Shown here: in pieces, positions 12,106-29,352 of the stretch | How positions within the stretch are numbered: position 1 is the stretch's first letter | Layout: every line of letters begins with the position of its first letter | Source: Haloferax sulfurifontis ATCC BAA-897 | GTDB taxonomy: Archaea; Halobacteriota; Halobacteria; Halobacteriales; Haloferacaceae | DNA: 64,000 nt | Assembly (NCBI RefSeq): GCF_000337835.1 | Contig: NZ_AOLM01000028.1 | Coordinates: forward strand, 62,001 to 126,000 | Reading direction: 5' to 3' | Translations under genes and position numbers: made by a program | Notes under the pieces: generated by a model | Databases searched by the model: none | Told to the model about the DNA's origin: nothing | The model's input: only the letters and a program-made list of their open reading frames with translations

Positions 12106-12174
12106 AGTTAGCAATCAGGCAGTGAGGTAATAATTGTTGGCGTTTTGTTCGGGTAAGCCGAACGAGTGTTCGCC

Positions 12175-13548: not shown

Positions 13549-14918
13549 GGTCTCAGTGGTCTCAGTGGTCTCGGTGAGTGTCGGGGGTGCTCAGGCCCGA
13601 GTGAGGGCGCAGAGCACGCGGGGGCGGCGGGTTCGGTCGCCGCGGTCCAGAGGCCGTCGACGCCGCCGTCGCCGATGACGGGCGCGACGAGTCGGTCGAA
13701 CTTCGCTCGGAGTTCCGATTCGGTGAACGGGTCGCGTTCGCCGCCGCGGGCGGCGCGCACCTCGCGGGCGTACCGCTCGCCGTCGCCCGTCTCGACGGTG
13801 ACGCGCGCGCCGCGCTCGTCGGGGGCGCGGGCCGCGAACTCCTCGGTGGCGACCACGTCCACGCGGCGGGCGAACCCGAGGGCGGTCTTCGTCAGCGCCT
13901 CGTCGGTGAACGCCTCCTTGCCGGTCTCGCCGGTCGTCAGCGCCGAGGCGACGGCGAAGGGAATCGAGAACTTCGCCTGCAGGGCGTTGGCGGGCGCGGG
14001 TTCCGACAGCGCCGCGGCCGCGGGGTACGTCTCGACGCTAACCGACTCGATGTCGGCCGCGTCGACGCCCGTCTCGTCGACGAGGAGCGCCACGGCGTCG
14101 AGGGCGGCGTGGGTGTAGCGGCAGGCCGCGTGGACCTTGAAGTAGCCGCGCTCGAGTTCCCAGCGCTCGCCGAGTTCGTCGGCGAGGGCGCTCCGGTCGG
14201 GGCCGTCCGCGGCCACGGGTTCGAGGTGTCGCGCCACGCCGTCGTCGAGGCCGGTGAACCCCGACTCGGCCTGGTCGACCGCGAGGAGGCCCGAGAGGTT
14301 ACTCATCCCCACGTAGCCGTTTCTGACGGTCGCGCCCTCGGTCGCCGCCTCGAACCGGGTGTGCTGGGCGTAGTTCGCCGCCATGCGCATCGCGTCGAGC
14401 GTCGTCTCGGCGTCGAGGCCGCGGAGTCGGGCGACGGCCGCGGCGGTCCCGACGCCGCCCCACACGCCGTGGGGGTGGAGGCCGTCCGCGAGCGGGACCA
14501 CCGTCTGGGCGGCGCGGACCGCCGCCTCGTAGCCGGCGACGAACGCCGTCAGGAACTCGTCGCCGCTCCGGTAGGCGGACTCGCCGTCCGCGAGGAGCGC
14601 GGGCAGGACGTGTATCGCGGGGTGGCCGGCCGCGAAGCGGTGGCCCTCGTCGAGTTCGAGGACGCTCCCGGCGGCCGCGTTGACGAACGCGGCGCGGTAC
14701 GCGGTGGTCCGCTCGCCAGCCGTCCCCATGACGGTCGATTCGCCGCCGTTCTCGTCGGCCCACCGGCGCGCCAGCGCGGCGACCGCGGGGTCCGACGCGC
14801 CGCCCAGCACCGCGCCGATGGTGTCGGCGACGACGAGGGACGCGCGCTCGACGACCGACGCGGGGAGGTCGGCCCGGTCGAGGTCGGCGACGAACGACGC
14901 GAGCGCTTCGTCGGTCAT
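13545..14918 (-). CDS. MmgE/PrpD family protein (second of two)
   Basis: The 457-residue paralogue of the next gene has LELDEGHRFAAGHPAIHVLP (active-site His region), a central MRMAANYAQHTRFEA helix and CRYTHAALDAVALL. It shares the MmgE/PrpD fold but is clearly diverged, so the pair may form a heterodimer or handle consecutive steps. The C-terminal 25 residues are an unusual Pro/Arg-rich extension (PLRPLRP at the end) over a DNA tandem of TCTCAGTGGT units. The last genes of the transporter operon precede it: the livF stop begins one base past its ATG at 14918. Confidence 0.87.
   Translation of the reverse strand: MTDEALASFVADLDRADLPASVVERASLVVADTIGAVLGGASDPAVAALARRWADENGGESTVMGTAGERTTAYRAAFVNAAAGSVLELDEGHRFAAGHPAIHVLPALLADGESAYRSGDEFLTAFVAGYEAAVRAAQTVVPLADGLHPHGVWGGVGTAAAVARLRGLDAETTLDAMRMAANYAQHTRFEAATEGATVRNGYVGMSNLSGLLAVDQAESGFTGLDDGVARHLEPVAADGPDRSALADELGERWELERGYFKVHAACRYTHAALDAVALLVDETGVDAADIESVSVETYPAAAALSEPAPANALQAKFSIPFAVASALTTGETGKEAFTDEALTKTALGFARRVDVVATEEFAARAPDERGARVTVETGDGERYAREVRAARGGERDPFTESELRAKFDRLVAPVIGDGGVDGLWTAATEPAAPACSAPSLGPEHPRHSPRPLRPLRP
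13551..13576. repeat. short tandem repeat in a gene end
   Basis: TCTCAGTGGT occurs at 13551-13560 and 13561-13570 and continues as a near copy (TCTCGG). It lies in the 3' end of the upstream MmgE/PrpD gene and codes for its repeated Arg-Pro-Leu tail. Replication slippage could have created or extended this tail. Confidence 0.6.
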
Positions 14919-14919
14919 C

Positions 14920-15624
14920 TCACACCCCGAGGTACGCCTCGACGACGCCCTCGTCTTCGAGGAGTTGGTCGCCGTCGGCGGTCATGCTGATGCGGCCGTT
15001 CTCCATGACGTAGCCCCGGTCGGCCAGCTTGAGCGTCTGTTGGACGTTCTGTTCGACCATGAGCACCGTCATGCCCTGCGCGTGGATGTCCTCGATGACG
15101 TCGAACACCTCTTGGACGAGGTGCGGCGCGAGCCCGATGGACGGCTCGTCGAGGATGAGCAGGTCGGGTTCGCCCATGAGTGCGCGGGCGAGCGTCAGCA
15201 TCTGCTGTTCCCCGCCGGACATGGTGCCGGCGCGCTGGTTCTTGCGCTCCGCGAGCCGGGGGAACAGCTCCAGCATCTCGCCGAGGTTCCCCTCGCGGTT
15301 CGCCTTCGCCTCCTCGGTCTGCGCGCCGAGAAGCAGGTTGTCGATGACGGTCATGTTGGTGAACAGGTCGCGGTTCTCCGGGACCTGCACGATGCCGCGC
15401 TCGACGATTTCGTGGGACGCCTTCGAGTGAATCGCCTCGTCGCGGTAGGTTATCTCGCCGTGACTCGGCGAGAGGATGCCGCAGATGGTGCGCATCGTCG
15501 TGGTCTTGCCCGCGCCGTTCGAGCCGATGAGCGCGACGATTTCGCCCTCGTCGACGCGCATGTCGACGCCGTGGAGCACCTCGATGTCGTCGTAGCCGGC
15601 GCGGACGCCGCGAAGTTCAAGCAT
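14920..15624 (-). CDS. livF: Liv-type ABC transporter ATP-binding protein (LivF)
   Basis: The 234-residue ABC ATPase has Walker A GSNGAGKTTT, the signature TMSGGEQQML and Walker B LLILDEPSIGLAP, plus the LivF-type ending (EDEGVVEAYLG). It is the second cytoplasmic ATPase of a branched-chain-amino-acid/amide (HAAT) importer and drives transport through LivH/LivM. ATG at 15624 lies within the last codons of livG (8-base overlap). Confidence 0.95.
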   Translation of the reverse strand: MLELRGVRAGYDDIEVLHGVDMRVDEGEIVALIGSNGAGKTTTMRTICGILSPSHGEITYRDEAIHSKASHEIVERGIVQVPENRDLFTNMTVIDNLLLGAQTEEAKANREGNLGEMLELFPRLAERKNQRAGTMSGGEQQMLTLARALMGEPDLLILDEPSIGLAPHLVQEVFDVIEDIHAQGMTVLMVEQNVQQTLKLADRGYVMENGRISMTADGDQLLEDEGVVEAYLGV

Positions 15625-16408
15625 CGACGTCGAACCCCCCGATGTAGGCCTCGATGACGCGGTCGTCTTCGACCACCGTCTCCGGCGCGCCGAAGGCGAT
15701 GCCCTTCCCCTGGTCCAGCACTTTCACGTAGTCCGAGATGTTCATGATGGCTTTCATGTCGTGTTCGATGATGAGCAGGCTCGTCCCGCGCTCGCGCAGT
15801 TGGCGGAACAGGTCGAGCATCTGCTTCGACTCCGACGGGGTGAGCCCCGCCATAATCTCGTCGAGAAGCAGGATTTCCGGGCGCGTCGAGACCGCGCGGG
15901 CGAGTTCGAGGCGCTTCTGTGCGCCCACGGTGAGTTCGCCCGCCTCCTCTTCGGCCTTGTCCGCGAGCCCGACGAATTCGAGGGTCTCCATGGCGATTTC
16001 GCGCGCCTCGCCCCGGCGGCGCGTGTGGATGTGCGCGCCGACCATCGCGTTCTCGACGACGGTCAGCTCCTCCAGCGGGCGCGTGATCTGGAACGTCCGC
16101 GCCAGCCCCGCCCGCGCGATTTTGTGCGCCGGGAGGCCGGAGATGACCTCGCCGTCGAGTCGGACGGTCCCGCTCGTCGGCGGGAACGCGCCGCTGATGC
16201 AGTTGAACAGCGTGGTCTTGCCCGCGCCGTTCGGCCCGATGAGGCCGATAATCTCGCCGCGGTTGACGGTCATGTCCACGTCGTCGAGCGCCTGCAGGCC
16301 GGAGAAGCGCTTGCCGACGCCCTCGACCGACAGAATCCGCTCGCCGTCGCGGTCGATGTCCGCGTCCGGGTCGTCGACGCTCTGTGCGGTCGTCTCGTCT
16401 GCCGACAT
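15617..16408 (-). CDS. livG: Liv-type ABC transporter ATP-binding protein (LivG)
   Basis: Starting at the ATG at 16408, this 263-residue ATPase has a 20-residue acidic lead, Walker A GPNGAGKTTLFNCISGAF, the Liv-specific ARTFQITRPLEELTVVENAM stretch, signature VGAQKRLELARA and Walker B LLLDEIMAGLTP. Frame remains open upstream, but composition there is that of a shadow of livM. TGATG overlap with the livM stop supports the ATG. It pairs with LivF. Confidence 0.95.
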   Translation of the reverse strand: MSADETTAQSVDDPDADIDRDGERILSVEGVGKRFSGLQALDDVDMTVNRGEIIGLIGPNGAGKTTLFNCISGAFPPTSGTVRLDGEVISGLPAHKIARAGLARTFQITRPLEELTVVENAMVGAHIHTRRRGEAREIAMETLEFVGLADKAEEEAGELTVGAQKRLELARAVSTRPEILLLDEIMAGLTPSESKQMLDLFRQLRERGTSLLIIEHDMKAIMNISDYVKVLDQGKGIAFGAPETVVEDDRVIEAYIGGFDVDA

Positions 16409-17484
16409 CACTCGCTCACCTCCTCGTCGCCGCGGACGCGGTTCCAGAGGGCGCGGGCCTGACTCGGCCAGCTCACCACGCCGCGCGGCGAGTAGATGAC
16501 GATGGCCACGAGGAACGCGCCGTAGATGATGCGGTCGAGGCCGTTGATGTCGGAGAACGTCGTCCGCGCGATTTCGCTGACCGGCGTGACGATGAACGAG
16601 CCGACGATGGGGCCCAGAAGCGTCCCCGGCCCCCCGACGACGGCGGGCAGGAGCAGTTCGACGTTCTTGAACAGCGCGAACACGGTGTCGGGGCGGATGG
16701 TGTTGAAGTACATCGACCAGTAGGCACCGCCGAGGGCGGTGAAGAAGGCGCTGACGGCGACGCCGATGAGCTTGTACCGGAAGCTCGGCACGCCGACGCT
16801 GGCGGCGGCCCGTTCGTCCTCGCGGATGGCGAAGAAGTACAGTCCGACCCACGAGTTCTTGATGACCCACGAGACGAGCGTCACGACCAGCAGGAAGCCG
16901 ACGATGAGGTAGTAGTACGGCAGGTCGCTCTGGAACTGGAAGGCGGCGAGGCCGTACTCAGCGCCGTAGTCGCGCGGGAACGGCTTGAAGTAGCCGTTGG
17001 CCCCGTGGAGTTCGGACATGTTGGTGACGACGAAGCGGAGCAGTTCCGCGAACGCCAGCGTCGCCAGCGCGAAGTAGTGGCCCTGTAAGTTGAAACGGAA
17101 CGAGAGCGCGCCGATGACGAGGCCGTACCCAGCCGCGAGCACGCCGCCGACGAGCATGCCAATCCACGGGTTCACCGCGAAGTCGACGACGAGCGCCTGC
17201 GTGGCGTACGCGCCGACGCCGAAGAACGCCGCGTGCCCGAACGAGAACTGCCCGGTGTAGCCGGACATGATGTTCCACGCCTGCGCCGTGTAGGCGTAGA
17301 TGACCGTGAGGATGAGCATCCGAAGGCTCAGCGTCGCCGCGAGTTCCATCCCGGCGACGTCGATTTCGATGAGCGTCGGGAGCGCCGCGAGCAGGCCGAA
17401 CAGCGCGACGCCCTTCACAAGCGGGGCGTACCGCCGGTCGTCGAACGTCCGGTAGCGGTCGCGGACGGACTCGATTGCGCTCAC
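16408..17484 (-). CDS. livM: Liv-type ABC transporter permease (LivM)
   Basis: The 358-residue integral membrane protein has about ten hydrophobic helices and the LivM motifs AWNIMSGYTGQFSFGHAAFF and LPAVVGGPGTLLGPIVGSFI. The first 20 residues are a charged cytoplasmic lead. The GTG start at 17484 overlaps the livH stop (GTGA). It forms the transport channel with LivH. Confidence 0.95.
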   Translation of the reverse strand: MSAIESVRDRYRTFDDRRYAPLVKGVALFGLLAALPTLIEIDVAGMELAATLSLRMLILTVIYAYTAQAWNIMSGYTGQFSFGHAAFFGVGAYATQALVVDFAVNPWIGMLVGGVLAAGYGLVIGALSFRFNLQGHYFALATLAFAELLRFVVTNMSELHGANGYFKPFPRDYGAEYGLAAFQFQSDLPYYYLIVGFLLVVTLVSWVIKNSWVGLYFFAIREDERAAASVGVPSFRYKLIGVAVSAFFTALGGAYWSMYFNTIRPDTVFALFKNVELLLPAVVGGPGTLLGPIVGSFIVTPVSEIARTTFSDINGLDRIIYGAFLVAIVIYSPRGVVSWPSQARALWNRVRGDEEVSE

Positions 17485-18446
17485 GCCTCAGCACCTCCGA
17501 AGAGGCCCTCGGGCTTGACGAGGAGCGTCCCGATGAAAAGCAGGAAGATGAGCACCTGCGCGGTGGTCCCGGGGAGGTAGTAGCCGCCGAACACCTGAAT
17601 CAGCCCGACGATGAGGCCGCCGACGAACGCGCCGGGGAACGAGCCGAGGCCGCCGAGGATGACGATGACGAAGGCGTTGATGAGGTACGTCTCGCCGGTG
17701 AAGGGGTCGAACCGCTGGAACAGCGCGATGGAGCCGCCGGCGACGCCGGCCAGCGCCGCGCCGATACCGAAGGTGAGGTAGTTGATGCGGCGGACGTTGA
17801 TGCCGACGTAGCGCGCGCCGTCGCGGTTGTCGGCGGTGCCGCGAATCTTCCGGCCGAGGTCGGTCCGGTTCAGGAACGCCCGCACGGCGAGCATCGTCCC
17901 GAGCGCGATGACGAGCGCGTAGAACTGCCCGAGCGGGATGAAGACGTCGCCGACCTGCACCGACCCGAGCGAGAGTTCGACCTGCTGGGGGTCGGGCGTG
18001 AACAGGATTTCGACGGCCGACTGGATGATGAAGAGAACGCCCAGCGTGGCGATGAGCTGGTTCTGCTGGGGTGCCTCGATGATGGGCTCGACCGTGAGAA
18101 TATGGACCACCACCCCGAGGGCGAACAGCACCGCGGCGGCGATGGGTATCCCGAGGAACGGGCTGATGCCGGCCGTCTCGGAGACCAACCACACCGAGTA
18201 CATCCCGACGACGAGGAAGATGCCGTGGGCGAAGTTGATGACGTCCATCACGCCGAATATCATCGTCAGCCCGAGCGCCGTCAGCGCGTAGACCCCCCCG
18301 AGCAGGAGGCCGAACGCGAGCAACTGTAGGAGGACGGGCTCCAGATTGGTGATGTCGGTCAGGAACTGTGCGAACGGGTCGATGAATCGGCCGAGGCCAC
18401 CGCCCTGTAGCGGCAGGGGCGCGACCGATGTGACTAGGTGTCCCAT
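17481..18446 (-). CDS. livH: Liv-type ABC transporter permease (LivH)
   Basis: The ATG at 18446 gives 321 residues with eight or so membrane segments and LivH motifs (GVYALTALGLTMIFGVMDVI near residue 55, NFAHG, and VILGGLGSFPGAFVGGLIVG). An in-frame TTG at 18476 is less plausible. LivH and LivM form the heterodimeric permease. The 94-base gap to the binding-protein gene upstream is short enough for one transcript. Confidence 0.95.
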   Translation of the reverse strand: MGHLVTSVAPLPLQGGGLGRFIDPFAQFLTDITNLEPVLLQLLAFGLLLGGVYALTALGLTMIFGVMDVINFAHGIFLVVGMYSVWLVSETAGISPFLGIPIAAAVLFALGVVVHILTVEPIIEAPQQNQLIATLGVLFIIQSAVEILFTPDPQQVELSLGSVQVGDVFIPLGQFYALVIALGTMLAVRAFLNRTDLGRKIRGTADNRDGARYVGINVRRINYLTFGIGAALAGVAGGSIALFQRFDPFTGETYLINAFVIVILGGLGSFPGAFVGGLIVGLIQVFGGYYLPGTTAQVLIFLLFIGTLLVKPEGLFGGAEA

Positions 18447-18540
18447 GCGGTTTCTACGCTCGGGAATTGTTGTCAACCCCCATAAAAGGTGGCTATCGTT
18501 CGAGACGGTTCGTTGACGTGACGGCGCGCGCGGGTAGCGG

Positions 18541-19863
18541 TTAGACCTGCGGTTCGGCCTCCGCGTACTCCTCGGGGTAGACGACTTTGACCGAGAGGTC
18601 CTGGACCTGGTTCACCGGTCCGAGCGCGTTGACGTTCTCGCCTTGGTCGTCGAACTCGATTGCGCCCATCGCGGAGATGTGGTCCTCGTAGCTGAGGCCC
18701 TTGAGCGCCTCGTTGATGTCGTCGGGGTCGACGCTTCCGGCCTCCTCGACCGCCTGAATGATGACCTCCGCCGCGGTGTAGGACATCCCGACCGACGCCG
18801 AGAACTCCTGGTCGTAGTTGTCGAGGAACTGCGAGCGCACCTCGGCGGTCTTGTCGACCGTCGGGTTCAGCGCGTAGTTGTTGTCCAGCACGCCGTTCGC
18901 GAACTCGCCGATGTCGCTGACTGCGTCGTCGTCGGTGAACGTCGCGGACGCCGAGGCGGTCAGGTACGGCGGCCGGTAGTCCTGGTCCTGCAACGCCTGT
19001 GCGAGCAGGACGCCGCCGGCGACGTACGTCGTGGCGATGATGGTGTCGGGGTCGGCGCTCCGGAGCCGCGACACCTGCGTGTTGGCGTTCGACGCGCCGA
19101 ACTCGATGGCCGTCTCCTCGACGATTTCGACGTTCTGCTCGGGGAGGAACTCGCGGAGGCTGTCGCGAATCGCCTGCCCGTAGCTGTTGTTGATGTAGAA
19201 CAGGCCCGCCGTGTCGATGGTGCCGCCGCCGTCGCGGATGACCGAGGGAACGAGGTCCGCGTAGTCGCTCGCCAGCCGGCGCGCCGGGGGCTGGGGCCGG
19301 TAGACGTAGTTGAAGTCGCGGCCCTGCAGGATGTTGTCCGCCGCCGCGATGGAGATGACGAAGGGGACGCCCTGTCGCTCCGCGACCTGCGTCGCCGCCG
19401 TCGTCACCGGCGAGGAGTAACAGCCGGTGAGGACGTCCGCGCCCTCGCTGAGCAGTTCCTCGCTGACCTGTCCGCCGAGCTCCTGTGCGCCCTGGTTGTC
19501 GCCCTCGATGACGGTCACTTCCGCGCCGTCGAGCGATTCGATGCCGCCCTCCTCGTTTTTCCGCATCGCGGCGAGTTTGATGGCGTTGCTCATCCCGACG
19601 CCCGTCGCGGCGAGACTCCCCGAAAGCGGGTGGTTCGACCCGATGATGACCTCGTCGACGGACTGCTCGGGCGTCCCCGTCGTGGTGCCCGTGTCGCCGC
19701 CGGACCCGCCCGAGTCGCCGCCGGAGTCACCGCCCGAATCACCGCCGCCGTTCCCGGCGTCGTCGCTCGCACAGCCGGCCAGTGTCAATGCCGCGACGCT
19801 CGCGCCCGTTGCTTTGAGGAAGCGCCGCCTGTTGCTCGTCGAAGACTTGAGAGTCTTACCCAT
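18541..19863 (-). CDS. Liv-type ABC transporter substrate-binding lipoprotein
   Basis: The 440-residue periplasmic-binding-fold protein starts with a twin-arginine signal (NRRRFLKATGASVAALTLAGC) whose lipobox Cys31 anchors it outside the cell. An acidic Gly/Asp/Ser linker with GGDSGGDSGG repeats follows, then a type I receptor-ligand domain (VIIGSNHPLSGSLAATGVGM). Ligand class cannot be read off: HAAT receptors bind branched amino acids, amides, urea, or aromatic acids. It sits with amidohydrolase and dicarboxylate genes, which argues against a plain leucine transporter. A TATA-like TTTATTA lies about 30 bases upstream. Confidence 0.93.
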   Translation of the reverse strand: MGKTLKSSTSNRRRFLKATGASVAALTLAGCASDDAGNGGGDSGGDSGGDSGGSGGDTGTTTGTPEQSVDEVIIGSNHPLSGSLAATGVGMSNAIKLAAMRKNEEGGIESLDGAEVTVIEGDNQGAQELGGQVSEELLSEGADVLTGCYSSPVTTAATQVAERQGVPFVISIAAADNILQGRDFNYVYRPQPPARRLASDYADLVPSVIRDGGGTIDTAGLFYINNSYGQAIRDSLREFLPEQNVEIVEETAIEFGASNANTQVSRLRSADPDTIIATTYVAGGVLLAQALQDQDYRPPYLTASASATFTDDDAVSDIGEFANGVLDNNYALNPTVDKTAEVRSQFLDNYDQEFSASVGMSYTAAEVIIQAVEEAGSVDPDDINEALKGLSYEDHISAMGAIEFDDQGENVNALGPVNQVQDLSVKVVYPEEYAEAEPQV

Positions 19864-20025: not shown

Positions 20026-21459
20026 TCAGTCGAGCGACTCGCGGGCGTGGATGCCGGCGAGGCGGCCGTAACCGAGGGCGGTCGTCAGCCCGTTGCCGGA
20101 GAGGTAGCCGCCCGCGCCGTGGCCGCTGATGCCGCAGGCGGTGCCGCCGCCGGCGTAGAGGTTTTCCACGGTGCTCCCGTCGGTTCGGAGGACGCGCCCG
20201 TGTTCGTCGACGACGAGGCCGCCCTGCGTGTGGAAGAGCGCGCCGGTGACTTTGGCCCCGTAGAAGGGCGCTTCCAGCGGATTCGCGCCGTCGACGCGAC
20301 CGACCTCGTCCGGCTCGCCCGCCGCGGCGGCCTCGTTGTAGTCGGCGACCGTCTCGGCGGCGGCCTCGCCGTCTGCACCGAGTCGCTCCGCGAGGGCCGC
20401 GACCGAGTCGGCGGTGTGGTAGGTCCCCCGCTCGATGGCCTCGTCGAAGTCCTCGAACTGCCCGCGGAGCTTCTCGAAGATGCGCTCGTCGAACAGCTGA
20501 ATCGCCTGTTCGCCGGGCTGTTTCAGCACCGAGATGGCGAACTCGCTGTAGCCGGCGGACTCGTCGCCGAACCGCTCGCCGTCCCGATTCACGAGGATGC
20601 CCCCGTTCATCGTGACCGCGTAGGTCGAGAGCATCCCCGTCTGGCTCGCCACCGTCGCGTGGCCCTGATAGGCGTCCATGCAGGCGAGTTCGCCGCCGAG
20701 TTCCGCGCCGAAGCGGACGCCGTCGCCGGTGTTGCCGTCCGCGCCGAAGTACAGCGCCCGCTCGACGTCCGCCTCGCAGTAGTCGGTGACCATCTCGCGG
20801 TTGCCGGCGAAGCCGTCGGTGGCGAGGATGACCTTCTCGGCCTCGATGGCCTCGTCGTGGCCGAGGCCGGCGACGACCCCCCGGACCGCGCCGTCGCCGG
20901 CGACGAGTTTCTTCACGGGCGCGTTCGTCAGGAGTTCGATGTTCGGCGTCGACTCGACGCGCTCGACCAGTTCGGCGACGAGGTTCTCGCCGTTTCGGCC
21001 CTCCGGGGCGTGCATCCGGTACTCGGAGTGTTTGGGGTACTTGAAGTCGTCCACGATGTGGAGCGTGACGTCCCAGTCGTCGACGAGCCAGTGGATGAGA
21101 TTCGCGCTCTCCTCGCAGAGGTACTGCACGCGCTCCTCGTCGGCCTCGTAGTCGTTTTTCTCCAAGATGTCGCGGGCCATGTCCGCGGGCGTCTCCTCGA
21201 TGCCGGCCTCGCGCTGGAGGCGCGTCCCCGCCGCGGGGACCATCCCGGTCGAAAGCGACGTGTTGCCGCCGCACTCGGGCGCTTTCTCCAGCACCGTCAC
21301 GCGAACGTCGGGGTCCTCGCTGGCCGCGAGCGCGGCGACGAGGCCGGTGCCGCCGCCGCCCGCGACGAGCACGTCCGTGTCGATGTCCCACTCGATGTCG
21401 TCGACCGAGACGACTTCGGCGACGCCGTCGCTGGGCGTCCGCCGGGCTAGTTCGTCCAT
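20026..21459 (-). CDS. FAD-dependent oxidoreductase, fumarate reductase/succinate dehydrogenase flavoprotein-like
   Basis: The 477-residue protein has an N-terminal FAD-binding Rossmann motif (DVLVAGGGGTGLVAALAASE), the ECGGNTSLSTG loop, a substrate-capping domain, and a C-terminal TQGGLVVDEHGRVLR and GGTACGISGHGAGGYLSGNG FAD segment. It belongs with fumarate reductase, 3-ketosteroid dehydrogenase and urocanate-reductase-like enzymes, which add or remove hydrogens at a C=C bond. No heme or Fe-S domain is attached. It is read leftward before the liv genes and diverges from the amidohydrolase operon. Confidence 0.88.
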   Translation of the reverse strand: MDELARRTPSDGVAEVVSVDDIEWDIDTDVLVAGGGGTGLVAALAASEDPDVRVTVLEKAPECGGNTSLSTGMVPAAGTRLQREAGIEETPADMARDILEKNDYEADEERVQYLCEESANLIHWLVDDWDVTLHIVDDFKYPKHSEYRMHAPEGRNGENLVAELVERVESTPNIELLTNAPVKKLVAGDGAVRGVVAGLGHDEAIEAEKVILATDGFAGNREMVTDYCEADVERALYFGADGNTGDGVRFGAELGGELACMDAYQGHATVASQTGMLSTYAVTMNGGILVNRDGERFGDESAGYSEFAISVLKQPGEQAIQLFDERIFEKLRGQFEDFDEAIERGTYHTADSVAALAERLGADGEAAAETVADYNEAAAAGEPDEVGRVDGANPLEAPFYGAKVTGALFHTQGGLVVDEHGRVLRTDGSTVENLYAGGGTACGISGHGAGGYLSGNGLTTALGYGRLAGIHARESLD

Positions 21460-21692
21460 GCACTCTGCTAGGGAGACTCTATCGTAAAACTACCGCCTCC
21501 GGCGGCGTCGGCGTCGCCGCGGCCCTCTCGCGTCGTCGCCGTGTCCGTCGCTTTCGTGGGCGCACGTGAGAACAATTCCCCCGTCGCTCCTGCGGCCGCG
21601 TCCGCCGTCGCGCCGACTCGAACGTTCAGGAACGGCAGACAGTCCGAAACGTCGGAGTGAAAAACTATGTGTGTCGAGAACACCCATACCGC
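21460..21692. promoter_or_regulatory. divergent promoter region between flavoprotein and amidohydrolase operons
   Basis: These 233 bases separate the leftward and rightward halves of the catabolic island and so must hold both promoters. No strong palindrome stands out. A candidate start context for the rightward operon is AAACTATGTG at about 21662-21671. Confidence 0.45.
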
Positions 21693-22100
21693 ATGGACTC
21701 GCCACGAGACATCGTCGAGGAGTTCTTCGACCGCATGGAAGACGACCGCAGGAACACCGTCGGCGACCTGTTCGCCGAGGACGCCGTCATCTCCCTGCCG
21801 GGGGCGACCTTCGAGGGACCGACCGCGGCCTACGACTTCCTCGCCCATCTCGAACCGCGCTACGAGTGGGCGGCCAAGGAGTTCGACCGCTGGCTGGAGG
21901 CGGGCGACACCGTCGTGAGCGTCGGGTCGCTCTACGGCGTCGACAACGACGGCGCGGACTTCTCGGACGTTCGCTACGTCGATATCTACGTCGTCCGCCG
22001 GGGGCTCATCGAGCGCCTCGACATCTGGAACGACCTCGCCGCCGACGGCGTCGTCCCGGTCCCGGCCGACGACGCGCCCGCGGTTCCGGCGGAGGAATGA
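21693..22100 (+). CDS. NTF2/SnoaL-like protein
   Basis: From the ATG at 21693 (an upstream in-frame GTG at 21657 seems too early), the 135-residue protein has the NTF2-like cone fold pattern: SPRDIVEEFFDRMEDDRR, then VGDLFAEDAVISLPG, FEGPTAAYDFLAH and the C-terminal RYVDIYVVRRGLIERLDIW strand. Such proteins include polyketide cyclases, limonene-epoxide hydrolases and small subunits of oxygenases. Its stop overlaps the next ATG, so it is the first gene of the rightward operon and may assist the LLM oxidoreductase. Confidence 0.8.
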   Translation: MDSPRDIVEEFFDRMEDDRRNTVGDLFAEDAVISLPGATFEGPTAAYDFLAHLEPRYEWAAKEFDRWLEAGDTVVSVGSLYGVDNDGADFSDVRYVDIYVVRRGLIERLDIWNDLAADGVVPVPADDAPAVPAEE

Positions 22101-23074
22101 GCGAGCGAACCGCGGTCCTGTTCGCGCTCCGCGACGACCCGTCGCTCGTCGTCCGCGCCGAGGAACTCGGCTACGAGTCGGCGTGGGCCGCCGAGGGACA
22201 GGGCAAGACCGCCTTCGGCAAACTCGAACGCTGGGCCGTCCACACCGACGAAATCGGCCTCGCGACGGGCATCGTCAACGTGTTCTCGCGGACGCCCGCG
22301 GCGCTCGCGGCGGCCGCGGCGACCCTCGACGACCACTCCGGCGGCCGCGCGATTCTCGGCCTCGGCGTCGCCCACCCCGGCGTGGTCGAGGCGTTCCACG
22401 GCGTCCCCTTCGACCGCCCGCTGTCGCGACTCCACGAGTACGTCGAACTCGTGCGGCGCTACCTCCGCGGCGAGGCCGACTCGTTCGACGGGGAGTTCTT
22501 CTCACCCGAGCGCACGAGCTTCTGGAACGCCTTCGACCCCGTCCGCGAGGAGATACCCATCTACAACGGCGCGCTCGGGCCGGCGAACGTCCGACTCACC
22601 GGGCAGGTCGCCGACGGCTGGCTTCCGAACCTCTACCCGCGCCCGCAGTTCGAGGAGGCGCTGGAGTGGCTCGACACCGGGGCGGCCCGCGCCGGCCGCG
22701 ACGCGAGCGACGTGGACGTGGCGATGTACGTCCTCACTTCCGTCCACGACGACGCCGACGAGGCGCGGCGGGCGGCGGCCGAACACGTCGCCTACTACCT
22801 GCGCGACGTGCCGGGCTACTACGACCGCGCGGCCGAGCAGGCCGGCTTCGCCGACGAGGTCGAGGCCGTCCGGGCCGCGCCGACGACCGAGGCCGGGGCG
22901 CGCGAACTCTCGGCGGAGTTCCTCGACCTCGTGGCGCTGGTCGGCACGCCCGACGACGTGCGGGGGCGACTCGGCGAACTCCGCGAGATGGGCGTCGACC
23001 TCCCGGTCGTCCGCGCGCCCGCCGGCGTCGACCGCGAGTGGGTGGCGCGGACGCTGGAGGTGTTCGCCCCGTAA
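22097..23074 (+). CDS. LLM-class flavin- or F420-dependent oxidoreductase
   Basis: The 325-residue TIM-barrel protein fits the luciferase-like monooxygenase / F420-dependent N5,N10-methylene-H4MPT reductase family (AEELGYESAWAAEGQGKT, RAILGLGVAHPGVVEAFHGV, GPANVRLTGQVADGWLPNLY). In haloarchaea F420 is available, so either FMN or F420 could serve. It may oxidise or reduce the ring of the pathway's substrate before hydrolysis. ATG at 22097 overlaps the preceding TGA. Confidence 0.88.
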   Translation: MSERTAVLFALRDDPSLVVRAEELGYESAWAAEGQGKTAFGKLERWAVHTDEIGLATGIVNVFSRTPAALAAAAATLDDHSGGRAILGLGVAHPGVVEAFHGVPFDRPLSRLHEYVELVRRYLRGEADSFDGEFFSPERTSFWNAFDPVREEIPIYNGALGPANVRLTGQVADGWLPNLYPRPQFEEALEWLDTGAARAGRDASDVDVAMYVLTSVHDDADEARRAAAEHVAYYLRDVPGYYDRAAEQAGFADEVEAVRAAPTTEAGARELSAEFLDLVALVGTPDDVRGRLGELREMGVDLPVVRAPAGVDREWVARTLEVFAP

Positions 23075-23140: not shown

Positions 23141-23800
23141 ATGACAGACCGTATCTGGGAGGACCTGCTATCCGAACAGGATAAACAGGTCATCACGAAG
23201 GCTGGTTACGACAAGGAAGGCGCCTCGTCGTGGGAGTCCCGCGGCATGGGCGAGAACCCGATGGTTCTCGTCATCGACATGCAGCGGCTCATCGTCGGCG
23301 AGAACGTCCCCATCCTCGACGCCATCGAGGAGTACCGCACCGCGATGGGCGACATCGCGTGGGACGCCATCGAACACATCGACCCGTTCCTCGACTTCGC
23401 GCGGGAGCAGGGGCTTCCGGTGACGTACACGCGGGTCGTCCCGTCGAGCTACGACGACCCCGACCACCCCGACCTCGACATCGTCGACCCGGTCGCGCCC
23501 GAGGAGGGCGACACCGTCGTCGACAAGTCCTACGCGTCGGCGTTCTACGGGACCGACCTGCTCTCGCGGCTCGTCCGCGGGGGCCACGACTCGGTCATCA
23601 TCGTCGGCAACTCCACGAGCGGGTGCGTCCGCGCCACCGCGGTCGACGCCAAGCAGAACGGCCTCAGCGTCGTCCTGCCGCAGGAGTGCATCTTCGACCG
23701 CATCGAGGCGTCGCACAAAATCGGCCTCCTCGACCTGTGGATGAAGTACGCCGAGGTGCTGGAGACCGAGGCGGTCGAAGAGTGGGTCGAGACGCTATGA
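23141..23800 (+). CDS. isochorismatase-family amidohydrolase (N-carbamoylsarcosine/maleamate amidase-like)
   Basis: Translation from the ATG at 23141 gives 219 residues. The cysteine-hydrolase triad is visible: Asp46 (VLVIDMQRL), Lys129 (DKSYASAFYG) and Cys162 (GNSTSGCVRATAVDA). Relatives hydrolyse N-carbamoylsarcosine, ureidoacrylate, maleamate or nicotinamide, all linear amides. The gene overlaps the following hydantoinase by 4 bases (ATGA), suggesting the amidase acts directly on the ring-opened product. A TATA-like TTTTATG lies about 40 bases upstream. Confidence 0.9.
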   Translation: MTDRIWEDLLSEQDKQVITKAGYDKEGASSWESRGMGENPMVLVIDMQRLIVGENVPILDAIEEYRTAMGDIAWDAIEHIDPFLDFAREQGLPVTYTRVVPSSYDDPDHPDLDIVDPVAPEEGDTVVDKSYASAFYGTDLLSRLVRGGHDSVIIVGNSTSGCVRATAVDAKQNGLSVVLPQECIFDRIEASHKIGLLDLWMKYAEVLETEAVEEWVETL

Positions 23801-25203
23801 CCCACGACCACGACCTCGTCATCTCGAACGGCACCGTCGTCACGCCCGAACACGGCACCTTCGAGGCCGACGTCGCGGCCGACGGCGAGACCATCTCCGC
23901 CGTCGCCGCGCCCGGGACGCTCTCGGGCGAGACGGAAATCGACGCGACGGGCAAGCACGTGCTCCCGGGCGCAATCGACCCGCACACCCACCACGGTATC
24001 TACCGCGGACTGGAGGCGGACGCCGAGTCCGAGTCCAAGTCGGACCTCGTCGGCGGCGTGACCACCATCGGGAACTACTTCCGCCGGGCCGGGGCCTACG
24101 AGGAGATTATGCCGGGCTACTTCGACGAGGCTGAGCCGAACTACTACCACGATTACTTCTTCTCGCTCGGCCTGCTCTCGATGGAACACGTCGAGGAGAT
24201 TCCGACCATCATCGACGAGTTCGGCATCACGACGTTCAAGTGGTACATGAACTACAAGGACGCCGCCCGCGAGAAGTTCGGCGTCGACTGCGATATGCAC
24301 GACGACTTCGGCGATGCGTTCGTCCGGAAACTCGCCGAACAGGACGTGCCGACGACGCTCGGCTACCACTCCGAGAACGTCGAAATCACGAACGCGCTCG
24401 CCGGCGGCAACGTCTACGTCACCTCGGAGTCCGACGACACCGACGCCGACGCCGACGAGGGCTACGAGGTGATGGTCGAGGAGTTCCCCGGCTACGCCGA
24501 GACCCAGAGCATGGTCGCCGGGGCCGCGCTCGCCAAGGTCCACGGCTACGACGACCGCTTCTACGCGGTCCACATCTCCGCCGGGGGGACGGCCGACGAA
24601 CTCGCCGCACTCCACGACGCGGGCTACCGGGCGTGGGGCGAGACGTGTATCCACTATCTCGCGCTCACCACCGAGGAGTGCGACGAGCGCATGAAAGTCA
24701 ACCCGCCGGTCCGGTCGAAAGCCGACCAAGAGACGCTCTGGGAGCGCCTCGCCGACGGAACCATCTCGACTATCGGGACCGACCACTGCGCCAACCTCGC
24801 GGAGAACAAGTTCGGCGAGGGCATCCGCGACAGCCTGCTCGGCTTCCCCTCGACGCCCGTGATGCTCCCGCTCATCCTCTCGGAGGGCGTCAACGAGGGC
24901 CGCATCTCGCTGGAGCGCGCCGTCGAGGTGACGAGCACCAACGCGGCGAAGGCGTTCAATCTCTACCCCAAGAAGGGGACGGTCCGGGTCGGAAGCGACG
25001 CCGACCTCGCCGTCGTCGACCTCGACGAGACGAAGACGGTCACGCCGGAACTGTTACACAGCGTCAGCGGCTACTCCCCCTACGAGGGCCGAGAGGTCAC
25101 CGGCTGGCCGACTCAGACCGTCGTGAAGGGCGAACTCGCCTACGACGACGGCGAAATCGTCGGCACGAAAGGGCACGGAACCCACATCGACCGCCCGGTG
25201 TGA
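23797..25203 (+). CDS. dihydropyrimidinase/hydantoinase-type cyclic amidohydrolase
   Basis: The 468-residue amidohydrolase shows the D-hydantoinase metal site: DPHTHHG (His63, His65), a Lys148 in TTFKWYMNYK that would be carbamylated, GYHSENVEI, YAVHISAGG and IGTDHC (Asp). This binuclear zinc family opens dihydropyrimidines, hydantoins, allantoin or cyclic imides. Residues AGAL..VTSTNAAKAFNLYPKKG are the C-terminal family signature. Co-translation with an isochorismatase-fold amidase points to ring opening followed by amide hydrolysis. The exact ring cannot be read from sequence. Confidence 0.92.
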   Translation: MTHDHDLVISNGTVVTPEHGTFEADVAADGETISAVAAPGTLSGETEIDATGKHVLPGAIDPHTHHGIYRGLEADAESESKSDLVGGVTTIGNYFRRAGAYEEIMPGYFDEAEPNYYHDYFFSLGLLSMEHVEEIPTIIDEFGITTFKWYMNYKDAAREKFGVDCDMHDDFGDAFVRKLAEQDVPTTLGYHSENVEITNALAGGNVYVTSESDDTDADADEGYEVMVEEFPGYAETQSMVAGAALAKVHGYDDRFYAVHISAGGTADELAALHDAGYRAWGETCIHYLALTTEECDERMKVNPPVRSKADQETLWERLADGTISTIGTDHCANLAENKFGEGIRDSLLGFPSTPVMLPLILSEGVNEGRISLERAVEVTSTNAAKAFNLYPKKGTVRVGSDADLAVVDLDETKTVTPELLHSVSGYSPYEGREVTGWPTQTVVKGELAYDDGEIVGTKGHGTHIDRPV

Positions 25204-25345
25204 GCCGGCGGCGACCGAACCGAGCCACGAACGCGGACTGACCGGCCACGCGGAACCGGGCACACGTCCCGACGGGCACGCGGACGCGCACACGCATCAC
25301 CACACGACCACCACACGCGACACAGAACGAGAAGACACACACGAC
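25204..25345 (+). promoter_or_regulatory. CA-rich leader between hydantoinase and CoA-transferase genes
   Basis: This 142-base spacer is conspicuously poor in T and rich in CAC/ACACG units (for example around 25258-25345). It is the only sizeable gap in the rightward operon and may carry a processing site or unstructured translation leader. No TATA box is evident. Confidence 0.4.
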
Positions 25346-26551
25346 ATGACGAACGACACGAACGGACCACTCGACGGCCTCGTCGTCCTCGAAGCCGGGT
25401 CGATGATATCCGGCCCGACCGTCGGCCGCTTCCTGGCCGACTTCGGGGCGACGGTCATCAAAATCGAACACCCGGCGTTCGGCGACCACATCCGCCGCTT
25501 CGGTCCACAGAAAGACGGCGTCGGCCTCTGGCACAAGTACCTCTCGCGGAACAAGCAGTCTATCACCCTGAACATCTCCACCGACGAGGGCGCGGCGGTG
25601 TTCGAGGACCTCGTGGGCGAGGCCGACCTCCTCATCGAGAACTTCCGGCCCGGCACGCTCGAACGCTGGAACGTCGGCTGGGAGCGCCTCTCCGAGGTCA
25701 ACGACGACCTCGTGATGCTTCGGATGTCCGGCTTCGGTCAGACCGGCCCGTACGCCGAGCGCCCCGGCTTCGGGACGCTCGCGGAGGCGATGTCCGGCTT
25801 CGCCTACCTCAACGGCTTCCCCGACTCGCCTCCGTTGCTCCCGCCGACCGGCCTCGCCGACAACATCGCGGCGCTGTTTTCGACGTTCGCGGTGATGTTC
25901 GCGCTCTACCACCGCGACGTCCACGGCGGCGGCGGCCAGTACATCGACACGAGCCTCATCGAACCCATCTTCGGCCTGCTCGGCCCGCAACCGCTCCGCT
26001 ACGACCAACTCGGCGAAATCGAGTCGCGGTCGGGCAACCGCTCGACCTCGTCGGCCCCGCGGAATGTCTACCGGACGGGCGACGACCGCTGGGTCGCCAT
26101 CTCCGCGAGCGCCCAACCGCTCGCCGAGCGCACGTTCGACGCCATCGACCGCCCCGACCTGAAAGACGACCCGCGGTTCGAGACCAACGAGGACCGACTG
26201 GAACACGTCGACGAACTCGACGCCATCATCCAAGACTGGATGGACGACCACAGCCGCGAGGAGGTTCTCGACGCGTTCGAGGCGGCCGACGCGACGCTCG
26301 CGCCCGTCTACAACGTCGAGGACATCCTCAACGACGAGCACTACGCGGCGCGCGAGGCGTTCCTGACGGTCGACGACCCCGACCTCGGCGAGGCGGTCGT
26401 CCAGAACGCCTTCCCGAAGTTCTCGGAGACGCCGGGGCGGGTCGACCACCTCGGTCCGTCGCTCGGTGAACACAACGACGCGGTCTACCGCGACCGACTC
26501 GGCTACGACGAGTCGGTGCTTTCGGACCTCGAAGCGGAGGACGTGATATGA
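25346..26551 (+). CDS. family III (CaiB/BaiF) CoA-transferase
   Basis: The 401-residue protein begins with the family III opening (LDGLVVLEAGSMISGPTVGRF) and has FRPGTLERWNVGWE and SGFGQTGPYAERPGFG. The catalytic Asp is probably Asp172 in PPTGLADNIAAL. Members transfer CoA between carboxylates (for example succinyl-CoA:citramalate, mesaconate C1-C4, formyl-CoA:oxalate). Next to a lyase and an aconitase-type hydratase, it probably activates a hydroxy-dicarboxylate for cleavage. The stop overlaps the next ATG. Confidence 0.93.
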   Translation: MTNDTNGPLDGLVVLEAGSMISGPTVGRFLADFGATVIKIEHPAFGDHIRRFGPQKDGVGLWHKYLSRNKQSITLNISTDEGAAVFEDLVGEADLLIENFRPGTLERWNVGWERLSEVNDDLVMLRMSGFGQTGPYAERPGFGTLAEAMSGFAYLNGFPDSPPLLPPTGLADNIAALFSTFAVMFALYHRDVHGGGGQYIDTSLIEPIFGLLGPQPLRYDQLGEIESRSGNRSTSSAPRNVYRTGDDRWVAISASAQPLAERTFDAIDRPDLKDDPRFETNEDRLEHVDELDAIIQDWMDDHSREEVLDAFEAADATLAPVYNVEDILNDEHYAAREAFLTVDDPDLGEAVVQNAFPKFSETPGRVDHLGPSLGEHNDAVYRDRLGYDESVLSDLEAEDVI

Positions 26552-27507
26552 GCCTCCTCGACTCGCTTCCCGAGCGCGTCCACGTCGTCGAGATGCTCCC
26601 CCGCGACGGGTTCCAGCGCCTCGACGAGTTCGTCCCGACCGACGAGAAAGTCGAGATAATCGACGCCCTCTCGGACACCGGCGTCGACGAAATCGAACTC
26701 TCCTCTTTCACCCACCCGAAGGCCGTCCCGACCCTGCGGGACGCCGACGAGGTGGCGACGCGAATCACCCGCCGCGACGGCGTGACCTACCGGGCGCTCG
26801 TCCCCAACCTCCGGGGCATGGAGCGCGCCGTCGAGGCCGAGGTGGACAAAGTGAACGCGCTCGTCACGGTGAGCGAGACGTACACCGCGAAAAACCAGAA
26901 CCGCACCCGCGAGGAGGTGCTCGCGGAGATGGACGACATCGTCGACCTCGCCCACGACCACGGCATCGAGGTCGAAGCCGGGATGGGCACGAGCTTCTAC
27001 TGCCCCTACGAGGGCGCAATCGACCCGGCGGAGACCCTCGCGGTCGTCGACAGCGTCGTCGACTCCGGCGTCGACGAGGTGACGCTGGCGACGACGATGG
27101 GCCTCGCGAACCCGGTCGAAATCACGGAGCGGTTCACCGCCGCGTTCGAGGCCCACCCCGGCCTCGACATGGGCCTGCACCTCCACGACACGAACGGGAT
27201 GAGCCTCGCCAACACGCTGGCCGCGATGGCGGTCGGCGTCGACCGCTTCGACGCCTCGGTCTGCGGGCTCGGCGGCGGCGTCGTCCTCCCGGGCGACATG
27301 TCCGGCGTCGGCAACACGCCGACCGAGGACCTCGTCCAGATGCTCGAACGCATGGGAGTCGGCCACGGCGTCGACTTCGGCCGCATTGAGGCGGCCGCCC
27401 ACGACGTGTCCGACCGCTTGGGCCTCGGCCTGACGAGCCACGTCCTCGCGGGCGGCACCGTCGAGGGCGTCCTCGACACCGTCGCCGCCGACGGGGAGGA
27501 GGACTGA
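26548..27507 (+). CDS. HMG-CoA lyase-like DRE-TIM metallolyase with unusual active-site loop
   Basis: The 319-residue protein has the DRE-TIM hallmarks of the HMG-CoA lyase family: EMLPRDGFQ (Arg19, Asp20) and the metal-binding His pair in LHLHDTNG (His211, His213). The G-loop reads GLGGGVVLPGDMSGVGNTP, so the catalytic Cys that normally follows GLGG is Gly244. It may cleave a different acyl-CoA such as citramalyl- or dimethylmalyl-CoA, or use another acid/base. It is flanked by CoA-transferase and hydratase genes with 4-base overlap and 1-base gap respectively. Confidence 0.85.
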   Translation: MSLLDSLPERVHVVEMLPRDGFQRLDEFVPTDEKVEIIDALSDTGVDEIELSSFTHPKAVPTLRDADEVATRITRRDGVTYRALVPNLRGMERAVEAEVDKVNALVTVSETYTAKNQNRTREEVLAEMDDIVDLAHDHGIEVEAGMGTSFYCPYEGAIDPAETLAVVDSVVDSGVDEVTLATTMGLANPVEITERFTAAFEAHPGLDMGLHLHDTNGMSLANTLAAMAVGVDRFDASVCGLGGGVVLPGDMSGVGNTPTEDLVQMLERMGVGHGVDFGRIEAAAHDVSDRLGLGLTSHVLAGGTVEGVLDTVAADGEED

Positions 27508-27508
27508 G

Positions 27509-28822
27509 ATGTCCGGCAAGACCCTCGCGGAGAAACTGCTCTCGGAGAAATCGGGCACCGACGCCCGCGCCGGCGACTACGTCGAAGCCGACGTGGACGT
27601 GGCGATGGCCCACGACATCACCGGGCCGCTCGCGTTCCAGACGTTCGACGAGGTGACGGGCGACGACGGCGAGCTGTTCGCGCCCGACCGGACCGTCTTC
27701 ACCATCGACCACCACGCCCCCGCCGACGGGGTGCAGGCCGCGAACAACCACAACGCGGTCCGCGAGTTCGCGGCGGAACACGGCGCACACCAGTTCGACG
27801 TGGGCGACGGCATCTGCCACGCCGTGCTCGTCGAGGAGGGGTTCGTCGGCCCCGGCGACCTCGTCATCGGCGCGGACTCCCACTCGACGACCTACGGCGG
27901 CATCGGCGCGTTCGGGACCGGCGTCGGCTCGACCGACCTCGGGACCGCACTCGCCACGGGCGAACTCTGGTTCCGCGTCCCGAAGACGCTCCGCTTCGAG
28001 GTCGACGGCGACCTCCAGGACGGCGTCTACGCGAAGGACCTCATCCTGCGATTCATCGGCGACGTGGGCTTCGACGGCTGTACCTACATGGCCGCCGAGT
28101 ACGCCGGGAGCGCCGTCGAGTCGCTCCCGATCCACGAGCGCCTCGTCCTCTCGAACATGGCCATCGAGATGGGCGGCAAGGCCGGCCTCGTCGCGCCCGA
28201 CGAGCGGACCGAGTCGTACCTCGAACGCCAGACCGGGAACGAAATCGACCTCGGCGACGCGTTCGTCTCCGACGACGACGCCGACTACGAGGCGATTCAC
28301 ACGTACGACGCGGCCGCCCTCGCCCCGCAGGTCTCGAAGCCGTCGAACCCCGAGAACGCGGTCGACGTGACCGAGGTCGCGGGCACCGAAATCGACCAAC
28401 TGTTCGTCGGCACCTGCACGAACGGCCGGTACGAGGACATCAAAGTCGTCGCCGACATCCTCGACGGCGAGACCATCGCCCCGAACGTCCGGATGGTCGT
28501 CGTCCCCGCCTCGAAGTCCGTCTATCAGCACATGCTCGGGACGGGCGTCTTCCAGACGCTCACCGACGCCGGCGCGGTCATCCAGAGCGCCGGCTGTGGG
28601 CCCTGTGCGGGCTACCACCAGGGCGTCCTCGGCGACGGCGACGTCTGTCTCGCCACGGCGAACCGGAACTTCCCCGGCCGCGAGGGGTCGATGGAGTCGT
28701 CGGTCTACCTGTCGAGTCCGGCGACCGTCGGCGCGAGCGCGCTGTACGGCGAAATCACCGACCCCCGCGAGGTCGAGACGAACCGCTACGACGACACGGT
28801 GTTCGCGGAGGTGCTCCCATGA
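27509..28822 (+). CDS. aconitase/3-isopropylmalate dehydratase-family large subunit (LeuC-like)
   Basis: The 437-residue protein keeps the three [4Fe-4S] ligands: Cys303 (GTCTNGRYED), Cys363 and Cys366 (SAGCGPCAGYH). SHSTTYGGIGAFGTGVGST is the family core. The compact length matches the archaeal LeuC/HacA/DmdA type, which isomerise or hydrate isopropylmalate, homoaconitate, citraconate or 2,3-dimethylmaleate. No leucine-synthesis genes (leuA, leuB) are nearby, so a catabolic role is favoured. It ends in a 4-base overlap with the small subunit. Confidence 0.92.
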   Translation: MSGKTLAEKLLSEKSGTDARAGDYVEADVDVAMAHDITGPLAFQTFDEVTGDDGELFAPDRTVFTIDHHAPADGVQAANNHNAVREFAAEHGAHQFDVGDGICHAVLVEEGFVGPGDLVIGADSHSTTYGGIGAFGTGVGSTDLGTALATGELWFRVPKTLRFEVDGDLQDGVYAKDLILRFIGDVGFDGCTYMAAEYAGSAVESLPIHERLVLSNMAIEMGGKAGLVAPDERTESYLERQTGNEIDLGDAFVSDDDADYEAIHTYDAAALAPQVSKPSNPENAVDVTEVAGTEIDQLFVGTCTNGRYEDIKVVADILDGETIAPNVRMVVVPASKSVYQHMLGTGVFQTLTDAGAVIQSAGCGPCAGYHQGVLGDGDVCLATANRNFPGREGSMESSVYLSSPATVGASALYGEITDPREVETNRYDDTVFAEVLP

Positions 28823-29352
28823 CGGGAGCCGCCGACGGCACCGGCGACGGCCGCCCCGACCCGGCCGACCCCGGCCGCGCGTGGGTCTTCGGCGACAACG
28901 TCGACACCGACCAGATAACACCGTCGCGTTTCATCGTCTCGTCGGACCCCGACGAACTCGCCAGCCACGCCTTCGAGGACCTCAGACCCGAGTTCTCGGA
29001 GTCGGTCGAGACCGGCGACTTCGTCGTCGCCGGCGAGAACTTCGGGAGCGGGTCGTCGCGGGAGCACTCGCCGCTGTCGCTCGTCGGTGCGGGCGTCTCG
29101 GCGGTCGTCGCGCAGTCGTTCGCGCGCATCTTCTTCCGCAACGCCATCAACCTCGGCCTGCCGGTGCTCATCTGCCCCGGCGCGGACGCCATCGAGGACG
29201 GCGACGAGATTCACGTCGACCTCGACGCGGGCGTCGTGACGAACCACACGCGAGACGAGACGTACGAGGCGGAGGCGCTCCCCGAGTTCCTCCAGTCGCT
29301 CGTCGAACAGGGAGGGCTGAAAGCCTACACGAAGGCGAAACTCGACGGCTGA
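28819..29352 (+). CDS. aconitase/3-isopropylmalate dehydratase-family small subunit (LeuD-like)
   Basis: The 177-residue swivel domain has the family stretch GENFGSGSSREHSP, where many relatives have NFGCGSSREH (Cys replaced by Ser), and FGDNVDTDQITPSRF near the N terminus, the substrate-recognition loop. The first 20 residues are an Asp/Pro-rich extension. It forms the active hydratase with the large subunit encoded upstream. It closes the rightward operon. Confidence 0.9.
   Translation: MTGAADGTGDGRPDPADPGRAWVFGDNVDTDQITPSRFIVSSDPDELASHAFEDLRPEFSESVETGDFVVAGENFGSGSSREHSPLSLVGAGVSAVVAQSFARIFFRNAINLGLPVLICPGADAIEDGDEIHVDLDAGVVTNHTRDETYEAEALPEFLQSLVEQGGLKAYTKAKLDG

Follow-up and report, generated by a model that had tools for sequence, protein, structure and literature searches.

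In a 64,000-nt stretch of Haloferax sulfurifontis ATCC BAA-897 (NZ_AOLM01000028.1, 62,001-126,000, forward strand; here called the window), overlapping genes for an isochorismatase-fold amidase (ISO) and a hydantoinase-fold amidohydrolase (HYD) appear, on balance, to supply the deamidating and ring-opening core of cyclic-imide catabolism, leading from imide via half-amide, alkyl-maleate/succinate and hydroxydiacid to pyruvate and acyl-CoA. The imide ring is probably five-membered, of the substituted succinimide/maleimide class. Gene context lends good support to the predicted coupling of the HYD and ISO steps and to a diacid as their likely end product. The original prediction, a two-enzyme imide-to-diacid module in an archaeon, is supported as to coupling and diacid by the accompanying hydratase, lyases, CoA-transferase and PrpD proteins in archaea and bacteria; the pair is indeed present, but as the middle of a longer pathway rather than a module complete in itself, and it is not exclusive to archaea, being found in bacteria also.

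The ISO-HYD gene pair

Both open reading frames lie as listed in Table 1, encoding proteins of 219 (ISO) and 468 (HYD) amino acids. The 4-base overlap originally described is correct: the junction reads ...ctATGAccc, with the ATG of HYD at 23797 and the TGA of ISO at 23798-23800. This 4-nt overlap is kept in most orthologous ISO-HYD pairs for which the start codon could be set, and is replaced by a 22-55 nt gap in six loci (L023, L026, L028, L031, L033 and L066). A longer ISO frame from 23105 is unused, as every orthologue starts at the equivalent of 23141; the aligned orthologue N-terminus is M-T-x-R/H-I/V-W.

Table 1 Features of the window around the ISO-HYD pair.
Feature	Position	Strand	Basis
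IclR-family regulator	11335..12114	-	PF01614 128.6 bits
MmgE/PrpD family protein 1	12175..13548	-	PF03972 + PF19305
MmgE/PrpD family protein 2	13545..14918	-	PF03972 + PF19305
Branched-chain-amino-acid-type (Liv) ABC importer	14920..19863	-	Orthologous to annotated H. gibbonsii pHGLR2 genes
FAD oxidoreductase, flavocytochrome c/KSTD family	20026..21459	-	PF00890
SnoaL-like small protein	21657..22100	+	PF12680 44.6 bits
LLM-class (F420-type) oxidoreductase	22097..23074	+	PF00296 220.8 bits; start by Haloferax gibbonsii comparison
ISO, isochorismatase-fold cysteine amidase (proposed half-amide amidohydrolase)	23141..23800	+	PF00857; D46/K129/C162
HYD, hydantoinase/dihydropyrimidinase-fold amidohydrolase (proposed cyclic-imide hydrolase)	23797..25203	+	PF01979; six metal ligands
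Class III (CaiB/BaiF) CoA-transferase	25346..26551	+	PF02515 385.6 bits
HMG-CoA-lyase-superfamily C-C lyase (proposed (alkyl)citramalyl-CoA type)	26548..27507	+	PF00682; NF004283 281.9 (cut-off 246)
LeuC/HacA/DmdA-type [4Fe-4S] hydratase, large subunit	27509..28822	+	TIGR01343 534.7 (cut-off 385.7)
LeuD/DmdB-type hydratase, small subunit	28819..29352	+	TIGR02087 191.4 (cut-off 109)

ISO scores 100.6 bits against the Pfam profile PF00857 (cut-off 27), and its triad, correctly named at the outset as Asp46, Lys129 and Cys162, is invariant in 30 amidase relatives; profile and triad together assign it to the isochorismatase-fold cysteine amidases. The best structural matches of its AF2 model (pLDDT 89.5) are the maleamate amidases 4l08, 4l07 and 3uao (Z 25.3-25.0), in a tie with N-carbamoylsarcosine amidase 1nba (Z 24.8), and the highest profile score is to N-carbamoylsarcosine amidases. 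The NCBIfam equivalog cut-offs for RutB (29.2 vs 377.95 bits) and biuret hydrolase (BiuH; 44.4 vs 370 bits) are not reached. HYD-linked ISO relatives cluster together, separate from RutB (96/99), in a tree where characterised references are few and several branches are long. NicF (3uao) and Ami (4l07/4l08), maleamate amidases of bacterial nicotinate/nicotine catabolism, share the fold and the Asp/Lys/Cys triad with ISO at ~31% identity over 182-190 aligned residues. Of nine active-site positions given as conserved for the maleamate amidase family (PMC5806882), ISO retains eight (D46, Q48, K129, F135, T138, G156, C162 and T166). Unlike NicF and Ami, however, ISO has no NicX, NicD or NicE among its neighbours and is instead partnered by a ring-opening hydrolase and by a LeuCD hydratase. 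N-carbamoylsarcosine amidases (1nba, 26st) are structurally as similar, but no creatinine or sarcosine genes surround ISO and the downstream enzymes suit diacids. A creatinine/N-methylhydantoin route was rejected on the same absence of sarcosine genes from the cluster and on the distance of the HyuA/HyuB pair. The latter (ATP-dependent hydantoinase/oxoprolinase type; 54911-59340, 4-nt overlap) lies about 30 kb away and constitutes a further system for ring-amide hydrolysis.

HYD (76.5 bits against the Pfam profile PF01979, cut-off 25) carries the metal ligands H63, H65, K148, H191, H259 and D329, invariant in 41 hydrolase relatives, and this binuclear set with its carboxylatable Lys places it, by sequence, in the D-hydantoinase/dihydropyrimidinase superfamily. 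D-hydantoinases are nearest in sequence, and the AF2 model (pLDDT 93.4) scores Z 50.5 against dihydropyrimidinase 3dc8 and about 49 against D-hydantoinases, a tie. With these enzymes (3dc8, 1yny) HYD shares the fold, the full metal-ligand set and about 32% identity, but it falls below the TIGR02033 (D-hydantoinase/dihydropyrimidinase) equivalog cut-off (250.5 vs 393.25 bits), forms a separate clade and has no M20 or nitrilase carbamoylase beside the pair. It is also below the NCBIfam equivalog cut-off for ErtD (hydantoin-5-propionate amidohydrolase; 171 vs 600 bits). In a 38-sequence tree, again short of characterised references and with several long branches, HYD falls among bacterial HYDs, mostly from ISO-linked clusters (93/92), and SmHydA, DeinoHydA and EcHyuA (PreA-/RutR-linked dihydropyrimidinases plus E. 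coli HyuA) form a clade of their own (100/99) that excludes HYD.

Structural comparison of the models ends in two ties, maleamate versus N-carbamoylsarcosine amidase for ISO and dihydropyrimidinase versus D-hydantoinase for HYD, and sequence and structure of the two proteins fit imide and ureide chemistry alike. The phylogenetic placement named as counting against it, with dihydropyrimidinase and beta-ureidopropionase, was not found: HYD lies outside the dihydropyrimidinase/HyuA clade and ISO outside both beta-ureidopropionase families (nitrilase and M20). An NAD-linked reductive pyrimidine pathway was set aside, the cluster having neither PreA nor an M20/nitrilase hydrolase, as was RutA/RutB-type uracil cleavage, given the RutB score of ISO and an LLM protein that scores best with F420-type models, although under their cut-offs (TIGR04024, 216 bits vs 345).

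Neighbouring genes in the window

Downstream of HYD, the CoA-transferase and HMGL-like genes and the leuC and leuD-type genes overlap by 4 nt each, with 1 nt between the HMGL-like gene and leuC. Scores above both family cut-offs and three invariant Fe-S cysteines of LeuC (C303, C363 and C366) assign the hydratase to the LeuCD/HacA/DmdAB family; the best solved relative of LeuC is the isopropylmalate/citramalate isomerase 4kp1. Three further aconitase-family places in the genome match this LeuC at 31-37% identity, so the cluster protein is a specialised paralogue. In the HMGL-like lyase, R19/D20, H211/H213 and N256 are retained, and the HMG-CoA lyase loop Cys (GGCPYAPG; GGCPYAPGASGN) is replaced (GGGVVLPG/GGGTILPG) in all 25 of the 25 haloarchaeal relatives. 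Because of this loss the protein is unlikely to be an HMG-CoA lyase, and its public annotation in H. gibbonsii as hydroxymethylglutaryl-CoA lyase is probably wrong. The (R)-citramalyl-CoA lyase of Chloroflexus is a member of the HMGL family.

On the other side of the pair, the SnoaL-like protein more likely starts at an internal ATG at about 21693. The FAD protein does not carry the key arginines of fumarate reductase/flavocytochrome c: both the catalytic and the carboxylate-binding one (402/544 type) are replaced by Tyr here and in most orthologues. Tyrosines occupy such positions in 3-ketosteroid dehydrogenases, and by analogy those of the FAD protein would suit a ring-carbonyl substrate, which we offer as a lead.

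Distribution in haloarchaea

HYD at about 60% identity or more was counted in 42 of the 391 sampled genomes of the class. Within Haloferax its distribution is patchy, and in some strains it is located on megaplasmids (e.g. pHGLR2 of H. gibbonsii LR2-5). At named haloarchaeal loci the pair is accompanied by one conserved set of genes: IclR (present at many of the compared loci), two MmgE/PrpD proteins, the Liv-type ABC importer, the FAD oxidoreductase, SnoaL-like plus LLM, CoA-transferase III, HMGL-like lyase and LeuC/LeuD. In Natrialbaceae (L052-L054, L058) the same genes occur in another order, indicating that the cluster is kept together despite rearrangement. A LeuC/LeuD-type hydratase almost always accompanies HYD-ISO in the haloarchaeal neighbourhoods compared. 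The lyase slot is variable: HMGL-like plus CoA-transferase in the window, CitE-like plus CoA-transferase in L063 and L074, and a PEP-mutase/methylisocitrate-lyase type in L059 and L067.

Two loci carry multiple copies. L074 (a plasmid of Halomarina sp. BND7) has three different ISO-HYD pairs within one 19-kb cluster, partnered by CoA-transferase and CitE lyase, by LeuCD2, acyl-CoA dehydrogenase, CoA ligase and AtuA/DUF4387, and by FAD oxidoreductase and IclR, respectively. One contig of Haloferax massiliensis (NZ_CSTE01000007.1, 63.5 kb; L037 and L038) carries the whole cluster twice, the two copies running in opposite directions; the cause is either a large inverted duplication or an artefact of assembly.

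HYD paralogues of 59-61% identity are found in four hut-like clusters (L056, L060, L062 and L075), beside HutU and HutH paralogues, a setting that makes hydantoin-type chemistry plausible, and with neither ISO nor LeuC nearby. L075 (a Haloarcula halophila plasmid) has an osmoprotectant/betaine-type ABC importer near, and L062 an MttB-family trimethylamine methyltransferase. From their gene content these loci look like determinants for catabolism of histidine betaine (hercynine or ergothioneine); their HutU paralogue, scoring 622.7, falls short of the cut-off of 930 for thiourocanate hydratase. A hydantoin-5-propionate/histidine link for the ISO-HYD cluster was rejected, adjacent hut genes being confined to Haloferax loci and absent from the cluster in other genera.

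These paralogues bear on the alternative that the ring opened by HYD is that of a 5-substituted hydantoin or dihydropyrimidine, giving an N-carbamoyl amino acid from which ISO would release the free amino acid. The proximity of HYD to D-hydantoinase/dihydropyrimidinase, the score of ISO with N-carbamoylsarcosine amidases (as high as any) and the HYD subclade (about 60% identity) beside HutU/HutH paralogues, which would suit hydantoin-5-propionate, all agree with such a route. We nevertheless consider it unlikely: neither an aminotransferase gene nor any gene of amino-acid catabolism belongs to the conserved set; the presence of hydratase, lyases, CoA-transferase and PrpD would be left without an explanation; the hut-type loci do without ISO, one having a Zn-dependent hydrolase in its place; and dihydropyrimidinases stand apart from HYD in the tree.

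Counterparts in Proteobacteria

HYD-ISO pairs of 31 to 38% identity occur in Proteobacteria, and on plasmids from Variovorax, Hydrogenophaga, Shinella and Antarctobacter they keep company with genes for PrpD, a flavoprotein, aconitase or a lyase. The Shinella and Antarctobacter plasmids have aconitase-HYD-ISO with a gene for an isocitrate lyase/PEP-mutase-type lyase, and Hydrogenophaga has HYD-ISO-methylisocitrate lyase (lyase 505 bits, equivalog cut-off 353). In Variovorax SRS16 the order is Liv importer-PrpD-FAD-PrpD-CobW-HYD-ISO, the FAD protein being 42% identical to that of the window. Variovorax sp. PBL-E5 plasmid 3 (L086) carries cofE, cofC, cofD, cofH, cofG and npdG with LLM, a HYD homologue and FAD oxidoreductase, by gene content a plasmid-borne, betaproteobacterial F420-dependent catabolic island. 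On the Shinella sp. WSC3-e plasmid (L071) a hydroxymethylbilane synthase gene (hemC; 24811-25743) lies about 8 kb from HYD-ISO.

The PEP-mutase-superfamily lyases in related clusters, together with a LeuD inside the LeuD/DmdB family model and the presence of an LLM enzyme, would also fit a six-membered, pyridine-derived lactam or enamide, opened by HYD (cf. Eubacterium barkeri enamidase) and deamidated by ISO, with DmdAB- and Dml-like enzymes finishing as in nicotinate fermentation; dimethylmalate lyase belongs to the PEP-mutase superfamily. Such a substrate is doubtful, as a flavin/Mo hydroxylase, a B12 mutase and an isomerase were not seen in the cluster, and the PrpD proteins favour a succinate core directly after deamidation. 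Mere co-transcription of HYD and ISO with unrelated substrates is very improbable: a few haloarchaea do have HYD without adjacent ISO (the hut-type loci) and in one (L073) ISO adjoins a different amidohydrolase, but adjacency, usually with overlap, persists across 60 to 100% HYD identity and the pairs recur in the distant proteobacterial range given above.

Proposed pathway

For cyclic-imide catabolism we infer the reactions, their order and their substrates from gene content, conservation, catalytic residues, folds and co-occurrence in two domains, all of which are observed. After Liv-type import, the ring might be primed by redox reactions of LLM/SnoaL and the FAD protein. HYD, as a binuclear metal amidohydrolase, would cleave a single C-N bond of the imide by hydrolysis and so produce a half-amide, from which ISO, as a Cys-Asp-Lys amidase, would release ammonia and a C4-core dicarboxylate. 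The PrpD proteins (as isomerase/dehydratase) and the flavoprotein (as ring/side-chain dehydrogenase) may adjust stereochemistry and double bond to give an alkyl-maleate, which the LeuCD hydratase would convert to a substituted malate; 2-substituted maleates are the known substrates of the isopropylmalate/citramalate/homoaconitate hydratase family. Activation by the CoA-transferase and cleavage by the HMGL-like lyase would then yield a 2-oxoacid (probably pyruvate) and acyl-CoA. That ISO produces a dicarboxylate, not an amino acid, is suggested by the hydratase family, the interchangeable lyases, the bacterial clusters and the hut-type loci that are without ISO and LeuC.

A more specific version, a complete maleimide pathway common to haloarchaea and Proteobacteria with a methyl-/carboxyalkyl-maleimide of hematinic-acid type as substrate, is a long shot. 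Hematinic acid is a known oxidation product of tetrapyrrole rings. Here HYD would open the imide and ISO would give a methyl-substituted tricarboxylate; once this had been hydrated by a homoaconitase/aconitase-type hydratase, a lyase that is either methylisocitrate-lyase-like or CoA-dependent would release pyruvate and a dicarboxylate or its CoA ester. Tricarboxylate-type hydratases, the Hydrogenophaga methylisocitrate lyase and tripartite tricarboxylate transporter components are compatible with it.

Comparison with known systems and significance

The two-step logic of cyclic imide to half-amide to diacid is shared with HxnM and HxnN, which carry out the imidase and amidase steps of nicotinate catabolism in Aspergillus nidulans, but the protein families are unrelated: HxnM resembles a Pseudomonas putida cyclic imide hydrolase as well as proteins of the PgdA/PuuE type, and HxnN is an unrelated amidase (PMC9304392). 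Degradation of itaconate/methylsuccinate and citramalate (PMC12290011) follows the same CoA-transferase, C-C lyase and PrpD logic to pyruvate and acetyl-CoA; the window cluster differs in its LeuCD-type hydratase and in its predicted start from a nitrogen-containing ring. The openly licensed literature searched held no account of this gene combination, of imidase with isochorismatase or of a haloarchaeal isochorismatase/hydantoinase, and documented no archaeal imide catabolism. Imide-to-diacid conversion is already known in bacteria and fungi; for this gene set the same literature yielded no described pathway.

If the proposed pathway is correct, the cluster that recurs in haloarchaea and Proteobacteria with its 'amidohydrolase', 'isochorismatase', 'MmgE/PrpD' and 'LeuCD' genes would gain a function, and 3-isopropylmalate dehydratase and HMG-CoA lyase annotations would be corrected in about a tenth of the sampled haloarchaeal genomes. 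The use of lyases of three families in one slot would be an unusual exchange that constrains the chemistry of the intermediate, and the clusters would be a source of salt-tolerant imidase/half-amidase pairs.
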